64,000 bases of DNA from Flavobacteriaceae bacterium. GTDB taxonomy: Bacteria; Bacteroidota; Bacteroidia; Flavobacteriales; Flavobacteriaceae. The translations under genes and the position numbers were made by a program. The DNA is taken from contig QXZA01000008.1 in assembly GCA_009886625.1 (NCBI GenBank), positions 1-64,000 of the forward strand, given 5' to 3'. Below are positions 31,421 to 36,126 of this stretch, piece after piece; the first letter of the stretch is position 1; every line of letters starts with the position of its first letter. The notes beneath the pieces are model-generated. The model searched no databases. It saw only the letters and a program-made list of their open reading frames with translations, and had not been told where the DNA came from.

Positions 31421-32902
31421 TTATGTAAGTTTTAGGTTAATGTGTTGAATCAAGTTTTCGATTCGTATTAAAGATACTTCTTTCCCAAGAACATTACAAA
31501 TTTCGAACAAATCTGGACCTCTGAGTTGCCCCACTAGAGCTATTCGAAAACTCTGCATTAAGGCTCCCATTGGTATTGATTCTTCTTTTGCCCAGTTCAT
31601 GAGGCTCTCTTTCAAATTAGGCGTTTCTTTTTCAATAGTTTTTTTGATTTTATTTAATATAACTATTGGGTTCTTATCTTTCAGCTTATTCAGTACTTTC
31701 TCATCATAAGGATAGGTTTTCTCAATAAAGGCAATTTCTTCTTCTAAATCCTTTAGGGTATACATACGTGCTTTAACCAAATTGACTAGAGGTTTGTGCT
31801 TTTCTATAGGATAATCTTCCATAAGTTTTGCTATTTGACTTTGTGTGGTTAATTCCTCAGTGTTCATTTCGATAATCTTATGGTGATTCACCCATCTTGC
31901 TTTTTCATAATCAAATCTAGCTCCACCCTTTTGAATTCCAGTAACAGAAAACTTTGTTTCCAAATCTTTTAGAGAGAAGAATTCATTTTCTGTTCCATCA
32001 TTCCAACCCAACAAGGCCAGGTAGTTGATCATCCCTTCTGCTAAAAAGCCTTTTTCCCTAAATCCTGGAGTATCTTCACCCCAATTTAACGGGAATACAG
32101 GAAACCCTCCTTTATCACCATCTCGTTTAGATAATTTTCCTTTCCCAGTGGGTTTTAAAATCAAGGGCAAGTGCATAAATTTTGGTGTGTCCCACCCAAA
32201 GGCATCATAAATAAGTTTGTGTAATGGTAATGATGGGAGCCATTCCTCACCTCTAATAACGCAACTAATCTCCATCAGGTGGTCGTCCACTACATTCGCA
32301 AAATGATAAGTGGGCATGCCATCGCTTTTCATCAATATTTTATCATCTAGTTCATTTGTATTGACTTGTACTATCCCACGAATCTCATCATAGATATTTA
32401 CCGTTTCTCCAGCTTCCACTTTCAGACGAACAACATACTCTTCTTTCAATGCCAATTCCACTTCGTCTTTTCCAATGGTTAAGCTGTTCTTAAAGAACAT
32501 TCTGTTTTTAGCACCATATTTAAACGACTCCCCATTCTTCTCAGCTGTTTCTCTTGCATCGGATAGCGCATCATTTGAGTCAAAGGCATAGTATGCGCCT
32601 CCTTTCTCAATAAGGAGTTTTATGTATTCATCATAAATTTCTTTACGTTCACTTTGACGATAGGGTCCATATTCTCCTCCATTTTTAGGCCCTTCGTCAG
32701 GATGCATTCCACACCATTCCAAAGCTTCTTGTATATAGTCTTCACTTCCATCTACATAGCGGTTTTGATCAGTATCTTCCACTCTAAGTATGAAGCTACC
32801 TCTCTCTTTTCGTGCATACAGATAGTTAAATAATGCAGTTCTTACCCCCCCAATATGGAGTGGTCCTGTGGGGCTCGGAGCGAAACGAACGCGTGTTCTC
32901 AT
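31421..32902 (-). CDS. gltX: Glutamyl-tRNA synthetase
   Basis: Class I synthetase charging tRNA-Glu; the product also feeds tetrapyrrole synthesis. The 493-residue protein begins TRVRFAPSPTGPLHIGGVRT (HIGH motif as HIGG, usual in this family) and has the KMSKS motif as GKLSKRDGDKGGFPVF (about 258). Anticodon-binding helical domains follow. It is divergent from ybeY, with facing promoter cores. Confidence 0.95.
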   Translation of the reverse strand: MRTRVRFAPSPTGPLHIGGVRTALFNYLYARKERGSFILRVEDTDQNRYVDGSEDYIQEALEWCGMHPDEGPKNGGEYGPYRQSERKEIYDEYIKLLIEKGGAYYAFDSNDALSDARETAEKNGESFKYGAKNRMFFKNSLTIGKDEVELALKEEYVVRLKVEAGETVNIYDEIRGIVQVNTNELDDKILMKSDGMPTYHFANVVDDHLMEISCVIRGEEWLPSLPLHKLIYDAFGWDTPKFMHLPLILKPTGKGKLSKRDGDKGGFPVFPLNWGEDTPGFREKGFLAEGMINYLALLGWNDGTENEFFSLKDLETKFSVTGIQKGGARFDYEKARWVNHHKIIEMNTEELTTQSQIAKLMEDYPIEKHKPLVNLVKARMYTLKDLEEEIAFIEKTYPYDEKVLNKLKDKNPIVILNKIKKTIEKETPNLKESLMNWAKEESIPMGALMQSFRIALVGQLRGPDLFEICNVLGKEVSLIRIENLIQHINLKLT

Positions 32903-32913
32903 TCTTTTTTTTG

Positions 32914-32921
32914 CAAAGATA
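32914..32921 (-). promoter_or_regulatory. TAnnTTTG promoter core of gltX
   Basis: Minus strand TATCTTTG lies 11 bp before the gltX start. Confidence 0.6.
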
Positions 32922-32964
32922 ATCGCTATTCTTTGATCTGCACCACTGACCCGTTCAAAACCTG

Positions 32965-32972
32965 TATATTTG
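32965..32972 (+). promoter_or_regulatory. TAnnTTTG promoter core of ybeY
   Basis: TATATTTG lies 14 bp before the proposed ATT start at 32987. It is important because it excludes the longer in-frame start that would lie antisense to gltX. Confidence 0.55.
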
Positions 32973-32986
32973 CAAAAAACTTAAAG

Positions 32987-33412
32987 ATTATACAGTTTAA
33001 TAACATACCGCCCTTTTTAGATCTCTCTTTAGTTATTAGTGTCATTGAGGAATACATTTCTTCCTTTGACTTTAAGGTTGATCAGTTAGTTTATAATTTT
33101 GTTTCCCAAGAGGAGTTGTATGAAATGAATAAAAAGTTTTTGAATCATTCCACACATACGGATATTATTACTTTTAATTACACCCATGATCAGTCGCTCA
33201 GAGCTGAATTTTTTATTTCTCAATGGGCTATACAGCGTTCTGCAGAGGAAGAATCTCAAAGCGTTGAGAATGAATGCCTTAGGGCCCTTGTTCATGGCGT
33301 TCTGCATTGTATTGGTTATAATGATTCAAGTTCAGAAGAAAAAAGGATAATGCGAAATTTTGAAGATCGTTTTATAGAGTTGTTCCACGTGAAACATAAA
33401 GCACATGTTTGA
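32987..33412 (+). CDS. ybeY: Endoribonuclease YbeY (rRNA maturation)
   Basis: Single-strand endoribonuclease needed for 16S rRNA 3' maturation. The zinc-site signature HGVLHCIGYNDSSSEE is present; a D rather than the third His after GY is usual in Bacteroidota relatives. There is no suitable ATG. The in-frame ATG upstream (32855) would lie inside gltX before the promoter, and the first downstream ATG (about 33121) deletes the N-terminal fold. I propose ATT at 32987, giving (M)IQFNNIPPFL, which resembles the usual MIQF-type start. The 3' end contains an exact parS site and overlaps mnmG by 8 bp. Confidence 0.85.
   Translation: MIQFNNIPPFLDLSLVISVIEEYISSFDFKVDQLVYNFVSQEELYEMNKKFLNHSTHTDIITFNYTHDQSLRAEFFISQWAIQRSAEEESQSVENECLRALVHGVLHCIGYNDSSSEEKRIMRNFEDRFIELFHVKHKAHV
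33381..33396 (+). other. parS centromere site 1 (ParB-binding)
   Basis: TGTTCCACGTGAAACA is identical to a canonical chromosomal parS 16-mer as known from Bacillus subtilis. It lies in the 3' part of ybeY, in which it encodes L-F-H-V-K-H. ParB loading at parS organises origin segregation. A second, inverted copy lies 1.9 kb downstream. Confidence 0.85.
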
Positions 33413-35276
33413 TACTACATATGATGTAATTGTTGTTGGTGCTGGTCATGCTGGCTGCGAAGCTGCTGCTGCTGCCGCCAACTTAGGTTCCAAAACCCTT
33501 TTGGTTACTATGAATCTACAGACTACAGGGCAAATGTCCTGCAACCCCGCTATGGGAGGTATTGCAAAGGGGCAAATTGTTCGTGAAATTGATGCACTTG
33601 GTGGATACAGCGGAATTGTAACAGACAAAACCGCCATACAGTATAAGATGCTAAATCAATCTAAAGGGCCAGCCATGTGGAGTCCCCGTGCACAATCGGA
33701 CAGAAGCTTGTTTAGTTTGGAATGGCGAACCATGTTAGAGCAAACCAATAATCTGGACTTCTATCAAGAGATGATCATGGACTTGATTATTAATCAAGAT
33801 CAGGTTATAGGAGTTGTAACTTCTTTGGGACTTAAGATTTATGCCAAAACGGTAGTTCTTACCAACGGTACTTTTTTGAATGGTCTGATACATATAGGCG
33901 AAAAAAACTTTGGTGGAGGTAGAGCGGGTGAAAAAGCAGCAGTTGGTCTAACCGCTTCCCTTGAACGTCTTGGTTTTGAATCCGGAAGAATGAAAACAGG
34001 AACACCACCGAGAGTAGATGGGAGATCATTGGATTATTCAAAGATGAAAGAACAACCAGGGGACTCAGAACCCTCCAAGTTTTCTTTTTCTGACCTCACA
34101 ACCCCACTACAGAAACAGCTAAGCTGCCACATTACACATACAAATTTAGAAGTCCACGACATATTAAGATCTGGTTTTGATCGGTCGCCAATGTTCAATG
34201 GTGCGATTCAAAGTACAGGACCCAGGTATTGCCCTTCAATAGAAGATAAGATTGACCGCTTTAGTGACAAGTCTCAACACCAAATTTTCGTAGAACCTGA
34301 GGGATGGAATACTGTCGAGGTTTACGTTAATGGTTTTTCTACTTCACTTCCAGATGACATTCAATATAAAGCATTAAAGTCGGTGGTCGGTTTTGAAAAT
34401 GTTAAGTTTTTCCGTCCAGGTTATGCTATAGAATACGATTACTTTCCACCCACACAATTGTTCCATAGTTTAGAAACAAAGCAAGTGCAAAATCTTTTCT
34501 TTGCAGGCCAAATTAATGGCACCACAGGCTATGAAGAAGCGGCTGCCCAAGGTTTGATGGCCGGGGTAAATGCACATTTAAAGGCCGCAGAAAAAACTCC
34601 TTTTGTTTTGGGTAGAGAGGATGCTTACATCGGAGTTTTAATTGATGACCTTATTTTAAAAGGAACAGAAGAACCCTATAGAATGTTTACATCACGCGCA
34701 GAGTATAGAACGCTTTTACGTCAAGACAATGCCGATGAACGATTAACACCAAAAGCTCATGCATTAGGTTTACTAGGCGATGACCGTCTAGAAAAAGTGG
34801 AGCAAAAACAAACCAAAAGAGAGGCCTTAGTAGGTTTTTTACGTAAAACGAGTTATGATCTTAATACGGCAAACATAGTTTTGGAGCGCAAAAAATCCGA
34901 TACCGTCACTCAGACAGACAAGCTTTCTAAGCTTCTTTCTAGACCCATGATTACAAGAAAAGACCTAGACGAATTCGACTCACTTTCAATATATCTTCAA
35001 GAGGAAGGGGTAGACGATGTTATTTTTGAGCAAGCTGAGATTGAAATAAAATACGCGGGCTATATTGAAAAGGAAAAGCGTAATGCGGATAAGCTCAAAC
35101 GACTTGAAAACATTATTATTCCTAGGGATTTTAATTTTGACAAGCTTGCTTCACTTTCTCATGAAGCAAAAGAAAAGCTTAACAAGATTCGCCCTGATAC
35201 GATTGCTCAAGCCTCCCGCATTAGCGGGATCAATCCAAGCGACATAAGTGTGCTTTTGGTTTCAATGGGCCGTTAA
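33405..35276 (+). CDS. mnmG: tRNA uridine-5-carboxymethylaminomethyl modification enzyme MnmG (GidA)
   Basis: FAD enzyme that, with MnmE, modifies U34 of certain tRNAs. The 623-residue protein begins with the dinucleotide-binding VIVVGAGHAGCEAAAAAANLG and contains NPAMGGIAKGQIVREIDALG and the family FFAGQINGTTGYEEAAAQG region. The C-terminal MnmE-binding helical domain ends with the ISGINPSDISVLLV motif. gidA is a classic origin-proximal gene. Here it is bracketed by two parS sites. Start overlaps ybeY by 8 bp. Confidence 0.96.
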   Translation: MFDTTYDVIVVGAGHAGCEAAAAAANLGSKTLLVTMNLQTTGQMSCNPAMGGIAKGQIVREIDALGGYSGIVTDKTAIQYKMLNQSKGPAMWSPRAQSDRSLFSLEWRTMLEQTNNLDFYQEMIMDLIINQDQVIGVVTSLGLKIYAKTVVLTNGTFLNGLIHIGEKNFGGGRAGEKAAVGLTASLERLGFESGRMKTGTPPRVDGRSLDYSKMKEQPGDSEPSKFSFSDLTTPLQKQLSCHITHTNLEVHDILRSGFDRSPMFNGAIQSTGPRYCPSIEDKIDRFSDKSQHQIFVEPEGWNTVEVYVNGFSTSLPDDIQYKALKSVVGFENVKFFRPGYAIEYDYFPPTQLFHSLETKQVQNLFFAGQINGTTGYEEAAAQGLMAGVNAHLKAAEKTPFVLGREDAYIGVLIDDLILKGTEEPYRMFTSRAEYRTLLRQDNADERLTPKAHALGLLGDDRLEKVEQKQTKREALVGFLRKTSYDLNTANIVLERKKSDTVTQTDKLSKLLSRPMITRKDLDEFDSLSIYLQEEGVDDVIFEQAEIEIKYAGYIEKEKRNADKLKRLENIIIPRDFNFDKLASLSHEAKEKLNKIRPDTIAQASRISGINPSDISVLLVSMGR

Positions 35277-35277
35277 A

Positions 35278-36126
35278 TTGTTTCACGTGGAACAAAACAC
35301 CTTTTTATTTAAAGCGAAAGACCATCTGGTTTCTCAAAAGGAATTCAATGTCTATTGGGACGAACAGAAAAGTTACGCCCATACAGAGGTGGCAAAGGGA
35401 ATAAATTTAGAGGCGTTTTATAAAGCAGATGCCTATAGCTCTCATAAAACAGAAAAGAACACCTTCCTTGATTATGTATATACTTTTGTTCAAAAACTGA
35501 TGCTTTCTTATAAGGCGGCTTTTGTCAAAAAGCAAGCAAACAACAACGTATTAGATTATGGTGCCGGAGTAGGAGTGTATGCTAGTTTTCTGAAGGAAAG
35601 GGGTTATGCTGTAAGTACTGTTGAGCCAAGTGAAACAGCTAGGAATGCCAGTTTTAATAAAGGATTGGATTGTTATAAGGCTATTGATCAGATCCCCAAA
35701 GGAGTACATTTTTCATCCATTTCATTGTGGCATGTTCTGGAACATTTACCCGACCCGAATACAATTCTTTCAAAGCTGAACTCTAAACTTGATTCAGAGG
35801 GTAGGCTAATTATCGCAGTTCCAAACTTGAAAAGCTATGACGCCAAATATTATAAACACCAATGGGCGGCCTTGGATGTGCCAAGACATTTGTGGCATTT
35901 TACAAGCATCGGTTTAATTAAAATGGTAGAGGAAAACAATTTTATGTTTCAATCGCAGCATCCCTTATGGTTTGATTCTTTTTATATTTCTTATATGTCA
36001 GAGTCTCAAAAAGGAGCGTCTTTCCCTTTTGTCAGAGGAATTGTAATTGGATTTTTGTCAAATATAAAGGCGTTGTTTAACGGAGAATATTCTTCGAAAA
36101 TTTATGTTTTTAAAAAGAAAGTTTAG
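35278..36126 (+). CDS. Class I SAM-dependent methyltransferase
   Basis: Protein of 282 residues with the SAM-binding motif NVLDYGAGVGVYASFLKERG, a second region LWHVLEHLPDPN and GRLIIAVPNLKSYDA, typical of Methyltransf_23 enzymes. Substrate unknown; such genes often act on small metabolites, quinones or glycans. I prefer the TTG start at 35278, two bases after the mnmG stop; an ATG at 35248 would overlap mnmG. The second parS site lies over the start and sets the N-terminal L-F-H-V-E-Q. The 3' end overlaps convergent holB by 4 bp. Confidence 0.8.
   Translation: MFHVEQNTFLFKAKDHLVSQKEFNVYWDEQKSYAHTEVAKGINLEAFYKADAYSSHKTEKNTFLDYVYTFVQKLMLSYKAAFVKKQANNNVLDYGAGVGVYASFLKERGYAVSTVEPSETARNASFNKGLDCYKAIDQIPKGVHFSSISLWHVLEHLPDPNTILSKLNSKLDSEGRLIIAVPNLKSYDAKYYKHQWAALDVPRHLWHFTSIGLIKMVEENNFMFQSQHPLWFDSFYISYMSESQKGASFPFVRGIVIGFLSNIKALFNGEYSSKIYVFKKKV
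35279..35294 (-). other. parS centromere site 2 (ParB-binding)
   Basis: TGTTTCACGTGGAACA is the exact reverse complement of site 1 at 33381-33396. It overlaps the start of the methyltransferase gene. Two identical-sequence sites in opposite orientation flank mnmG. Confidence 0.85.

Follow-up and report, generated by a model that had tools for sequence, protein, structure and literature searches.

The present study examines the surroundings of mnmG (gidA) in a genome of the family Flavobacteriaceae (GenBank assembly GCA_009886625.1), using a window that comprises the first 64,000 bases of contig QXZA01000008.1. The gene lies between an open reading frame (ORF) for YbeY and an ORF for a class I S-adenosylmethionine (SAM) methyltransferase, and it is bracketed by two copies of a 16-mer that resembles parS, the centromere site of ParABS chromosome partition systems (Table 1). 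A sequence-only reading of this DNA had reported the 16-mer on one side of mnmG and its exact reverse complement on the other, and a search of the window recovered both. Its description of the sites as inverted was right as to their places, but each matches its own reverse complement at all but two positions, so that both are near-palindromes and orientation says little; orientation of the pair was accordingly rejected as a feature. The placing of both sites within genes likewise stood in part. Site 1 is at the end of ybeY, distal to the Pfam YbeY match (residues 65–174 of 185) and separated by 8 bases from the ATG of mnmG, but for site 2 to fall inside the methyltransferase, translation would have to begin at the GTG at 35248 or the TTG at 35278, and the alignment with a relative's homologue begins at residue 24 of the ORF in the window, past site 2. 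Translation gave the peptides LFHVKH in the ybeY tail and LFHVEQ at site 2, in agreement with the reported LFHV.

Table 1. Features at the mnmG locus, in positions of the window
Feature	Position	Strand	Remarks
parS site 1 (TGTTCCACGTGAAACA)	33381..33396	+	3′ tail of ybeY, codons 176–181 of the ORF
parS site 2 (16-mer of site 1, minus strand)	35279..35294	-	2 bases 3′ of the mnmG stop codon
mnmG (gidA), bracketed gene	33405..35276	+	TIGR00136, 839 bits vs cut-off 524.85
ybeY ORF, contains site 1	32855..33412	+	TIGR00043, PF02130; true start possibly further downstream
Class I SAM methyltransferase ORF	35248..36126	+	PF13489; uncertain start codon; site 2 at or ahead of its 5′ end
Best break, strand-corrected fourfold-site GC skew, minus to plus	34332..35685		Mid-points of the two flanking genes; putative origin

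Both sites match exactly the universal parS consensus, a 16-bp palindrome given as TGTTTCACGTGAAACA in a study of gut bacteria (PMC10197239). Allowing up to three mismatches, the 64-kb window contained six strand-matches against 0.49 expected, these being both sites on both strands and two weak ones. Copies are not scattered through the genome: at up to two mismatches the two mnmG sites were the only matches in the whole assembly (1,912,170 bases in 30 contigs), and each was exact. A reversed control pattern matched the same assembly twice per strand at up to two mismatches and never at zero, and the weight of the observation therefore rests on exactness; the composition of the window's contig predicts 0.014–0.018 exact 14-base cores per genome.

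The pair is widely conserved among relatives. In a family sample of 120 genomes, one per genus and including our own, 100 had exactly two exact cores and the rest had none (2), one (5), three (10), or four, five or seven (one genome each), for a total of 251 cores compared with 2 for the reversed control; among the matches listed, pairs were mostly 1.9–2.1 kb apart. The palindrome was also sought at the 80 best-matching mnmG loci with record titles, most of these naming Flavobacteriaceae or other Bacteroidota, and in 30 relatives' genomes chosen from these loci all 71 exact cores were within 1,052 bases of mnmG, with whole-genome counts equal to near-mnmG counts genome by genome (reversed control, 1). 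We also gathered 136 mnmG loci, own included, the last set deliberately with odd genomes, and dropped five with too short a flank. Exact cores were present on both sides of mnmG in 105 of the remaining 131, and median distances from the gene in this set were 30 bp upstream and 10 bp downstream. When 118 upstream and 113 downstream sites were aligned, conservation of the core was given by the choice of pattern, and from the second base outside it information was 0.4 bits or less. Of the 315 cores counted in relatives, 199 had one of the two fully symmetric forms, GTTCCACGTGGAAC or GTTTCACGTGAAAC. Some loci carry more: L023, L026, L015 and L007 have arrays of 4–7 parS sites upstream of mnmG with a spacing of about 35–92 bp, L015 having six of them about 1 kb upstream.

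Patterns of GC skew point to a replication origin at the same spot. On the window's contig (99,959 bases) the best break coincides with the boundary between mnmG and the methyltransferase (F 29.3, reached by none of 1000 gene-order shuffles), with a bootstrap interquartile range of 35.0–37.3 kb, a 95% range of 29.7–87.9 kb, and a site-level fit at 33.5–39.0 kb; the switch thus falls at the sites and the skew minimum is not far away. Seven other complete genomes of the order Flavobacteriales were sampled for skew, with 20 stretches for G059, G148 and G164, 10 each for G133 and G200, and 8 each for G125 and G087. By this measure the origin is at or near mnmG, the minus-to-plus switch interval containing the gene clearly in five (G059, G148, G164, G133 and G087), weakly in G125, and by raw skew alone in G200. 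None of the seven had dnaA at a clear minus-to-plus switch. In our genome dnaA lies on contig C25, apart from both mnmG and parB, and mnmG and dnaA are 0.75–1.70 Mb apart in eight complete genomes of the order, including G021 (Polaribacter sp. BM10, placed by title). The suggestion that mnmG is a classic origin-proximal gene is therefore borne out by skew but not by the usual linkage to dnaA, and the locus does not belong with dnaA-linked origins, dnaA being remote and no DnaA-box cluster having been found near mnmG in our contig and three genomes of the order.

Published predictions agree with this location. In Mariniflexile litorale and Algorimicrobium, members of the same family, oriC was predicted at mnmG with Ori-Finder 2022 and GC skew (PMC11278836, PMC12843772), and for M. 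litorale the position of dnaA was at odds with the skew plot (PMC11278836). The mnmG-adjacent origin is thus shared with the window, while in the parts of those two papers available to us parS is not mentioned, the sole match to "pars" in each being a passage on maximum parsimony. For 12 gut bacteria, including two Bacteroidetes, origins were set by a parS cluster together with GC skew; dnaA was not always at the origin, and no known condensin was found in the two Bacteroidetes (PMC10197239). Those parS-marked origins resemble the one described here, although the bacteria are others and the portions seen do not mention a bracket around mnmG. Nothing on parS in flavobacteria was found in the available parts of PMC10225481, PMC11943960, PMC13342612, PMC7203096 and PMC7022226, and no description of the mnmG bracket in flavobacteria was recognized in the literature covered, a scope outside which most subscription journals lie.

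A cognate partition system is encoded elsewhere in the genome. No parB is in the window, as the sequence-only reading had stated, and the only parB-family gene over cut-off is on contig C19, directly preceded by parA. The predicted ParB has N-terminal, helix-turn-helix and dimerization domains (ParB_N, HTH_ParB, ParB_C), scores 171 bits against a cut-off of 58 with the general ParB domain profile, and has as best solved relatives ParB family proteins (5e-54), a chromosome-partitioning ParB (3.4e-51) and Spo0J (1.7e-50). It contains the stretches GERRYRA and ENIQRED, which we take to be CTP-pocket motifs. ParB was also present in all 30 further genomes searched. Loading of a partner condensin, SMC-ScpAB, at parS is common in ParABS systems and not universal. 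Neither SMC (TIGR02168, E 1e-30) nor ScpA (PF02616, E 1e-5) was matched in our genome or eight order-mates (G000, G059, G087, G133, G148, G164, G200, G125 and G021 in all), in a condensin search that covered these two proteins and left MksB and MukB unsearched. Both proteins were found in 20 of 20 other Bacteroidota in a chosen sample, and the control Bacteroides ihuae was without either, so that the absence extends beyond the order. The job of ParB in loading SMC-ScpAB is thus probably missing in these bacteria or done by another complex.

The uniqueness of the sites, the ParAB pair and the skew break support the earlier interpretation of a chromosomal parS near the origin, and sites clustered near the origin and absent elsewhere characterize both this genome and its relatives, skew being weak in G125 and G200. 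On the evidence of sequence, we regard it as very probable that the palindrome pair represents the chromosome's parS sites and so the centromere of a ParABS system. The sites, their uniqueness in the assembly, the genes for ParA and ParB, the break in skew and the conservation of position across most of the family despite varying flanks and coding context come directly from the analysis, and what is known of ParABS suggests how they would act. ParB dimers would load on both sites and, once closed into CTP-dependent clamps, slide onto the neighboring DNA, turning mnmG and the region around it into the partition complex, and ParA would then pull sister origins apart soon after replication, an early separation expected because the sites are at or near the origin.

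The kind of system is well known: on this reading it is a canonical ParABS centromere, at an origin without dnaA. As in the Spo0J/ParB type of Bacillus subtilis, there is the same palindrome family, a ParA-ParB gene pair and an origin-proximal position. It differs from that type in that two sites flank mnmG and none is at parAB, that the origin is remote from dnaA in order-mates, and that SMC-ScpAB was not found in the order. What merits follow-up is the bracket of two sites, together with an origin that lacks dnaA and the failure to find SMC-ScpAB. The mnmG pair offers a simple sequence mark for the flavobacterial replication origin, and dnaA, when taken as the genome start, can be up to 1.7 Mb off the origin defined by skew. 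A natural two-site ParABS in which SMC-ScpAB was not found also makes it possible to test directly what ParB does besides loading condensin. A more specific and rather doubtful possibility is that Flavobacteriales keep a minimal two-site centromere of about 1.9 kb with the origin and far from dnaA, working without SMC-ScpAB by means of ParA alone or an unrecognized condensin recruited by ParB, and that the selected feature is the pair flanking a constantly transcribed gene and not a single site.

Several observations weigh against a parS centromere at an origin beside mnmG. The parA-parB pair is on a different contig, C19, which has no parS site at up to two mismatches, and since the assembly is 91.65% complete a third site may be missing from it. 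The best NCBIfam score of our ParB is to the Noc profile TIGR04285 (234 bits), although it stays below that profile's cut-off of 315 and the Noc site differs in sequence from parS. Exact cores are lacking in two of the 120 family genomes and, within the flank, in 8 of the 131 loci, two of which have one-mismatch cores. A further 18 loci are one-sided, 13 with upstream and 5 with downstream cores (4 if a pair with identical mnmG is counted once); a one-mismatch core lies within 300 bases on the other side in 6 of the 13 and 3 of the 5. With respect to skew, the switch at mnmG is weak in G125 and the corrected skew of G200 stays close to zero between 0.24 and 1.7 Mb, raw skew alone switching across mnmG. 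Fine maps place the step 5–22 kb from mnmG in G148 and 18–26 kb in G164, and that of G059 fits better at another step about 55 kb away, while skew in G246 is noisy and does not choose between the positions of parS and mnmG. Finally, clusters of DnaA boxes (at least four within 400 bp, at most one mismatch each) were found neither in our own contig nor up to about 60 kb from mnmG in G059, G148 and G164, and the unwinding element was thus not located.

Relaxed searches for an origin element gave little more. Of four relaxed DnaA-box patterns the best occurred in 9 of 61 loci compared with 2 of 96 control stretches, a weak result from a post-hoc pick, and in none of 18 near-mnmG stretches of G059, G148 and G164. 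The top 25 clustered 9-mers near mnmG each occurred in at most 2 of 61 loci, a good number of them being parS itself. As a lead for such an element, L010 (at 19306) and L069 (at 16284) have 5 and 6 words of the relaxed DnaA-box-like form TTWTNCAMA per 300 bp, 5–7 kb downstream of the end of mnmG.

An alternative explanation could be that the pair serves mainly in the regulation of mnmG or ybeY expression, with ParB or a different regulator bound to it. The closeness of site 1 to the start codon of mnmG and of site 2 to its stop would suit such a role, as would the tight bracket around one gene in relatives, and in Pseudomonas aeruginosa ParB reportedly represses promoters adjacent to parS, according to the title of PMC5521831. 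This would not account for G246, in which mnmG is at 1,277 kb and three cores are at 997–999 kb, about 280 kb from it, adjoining a gene homologous (37% identity) to the methyltransferase of the window; sites evidently need not follow mnmG. Nor would it account for sites 0.4–18 kb from mnmG in G060 and G209, for the 5–8 sites of several genomes, or for a skew break at the same spot, and a mainly regulatory role seems very unlikely. We give still less credence to the idea that the sites are disused relics, inherited with the mnmG neighborhood now that SMC-ScpAB is gone. The failure to find SMC or ScpA in nine of nine order members is what such relics would lead one to expect, but the sites are conserved while bases just outside are not, exactly two exact cores are retained in most of the family sample, and every genome searched encodes ParB.

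The matching DNA could also be a by-product of an LFHV peptide conserved in two proteins, in keeping with the LFHV frame of both window sites and of 34 of the 35 upstream sites that lie inside plus-strand ORFs. Site 1 is beyond the YbeY domain, however, and the nearest site was intergenic in 61 of the 105 bracketed loci upstream of mnmG and in 87 of 105 downstream, with strand or frame not matching in other cases. The peptide is thus not kept in relatives, which answers a check that the sequence-only reading had proposed, and as most sites are intergenic LFHV is itself the by-product. Coding constraint on LFHV is refuted by these positions, an explanation to which we assign next to no probability, and it is the DNA, not the peptide, that is kept by conservation.

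A chromosomal parS beside mnmG also appears to be older than the Flavobacteriales. Outside the order, exact cores were present in 20 of 22 genomes of one to three contigs and absent from 2, and two one-mismatch cores without any exact one were seen just upstream of mnmG in G063 and just downstream in G221. Among the cores listed, all were within about 18 kb of mnmG, those listed for G177 being one of six. This proximity outside the order implies that the link between parS and mnmG predates it. The distance from mnmG to dnaA is about 7–80 kb in G082, G032, G060, G103, G162, G177, G225 and G218 and 0.15–1.8 Mb in others, e.g. G089, G142, G073, G035 and G063, and we infer that dnaA left the origin in Flavobacteriales.

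There were some records in which mnmG itself was unusual. G230, G331 and G257 had no mnmG match at E 1e-100 although all are at least 90% complete and G331 is a single contig; G230 and G331 are without an exact parS core and G257 has one. The mnmG-like frame of L280 (G283) has three internal TAA codons and was matched at residues 5–507 alone, possibly because it is a decayed copy or contains a sequencing fault. Records L007 and L040, metagenome-assembled genomes (MAGs) titled Limnohabitans sp. and Chitinophaga pinensis, carry mnmG 71% identical to that of the window and are probably misbinned contigs.

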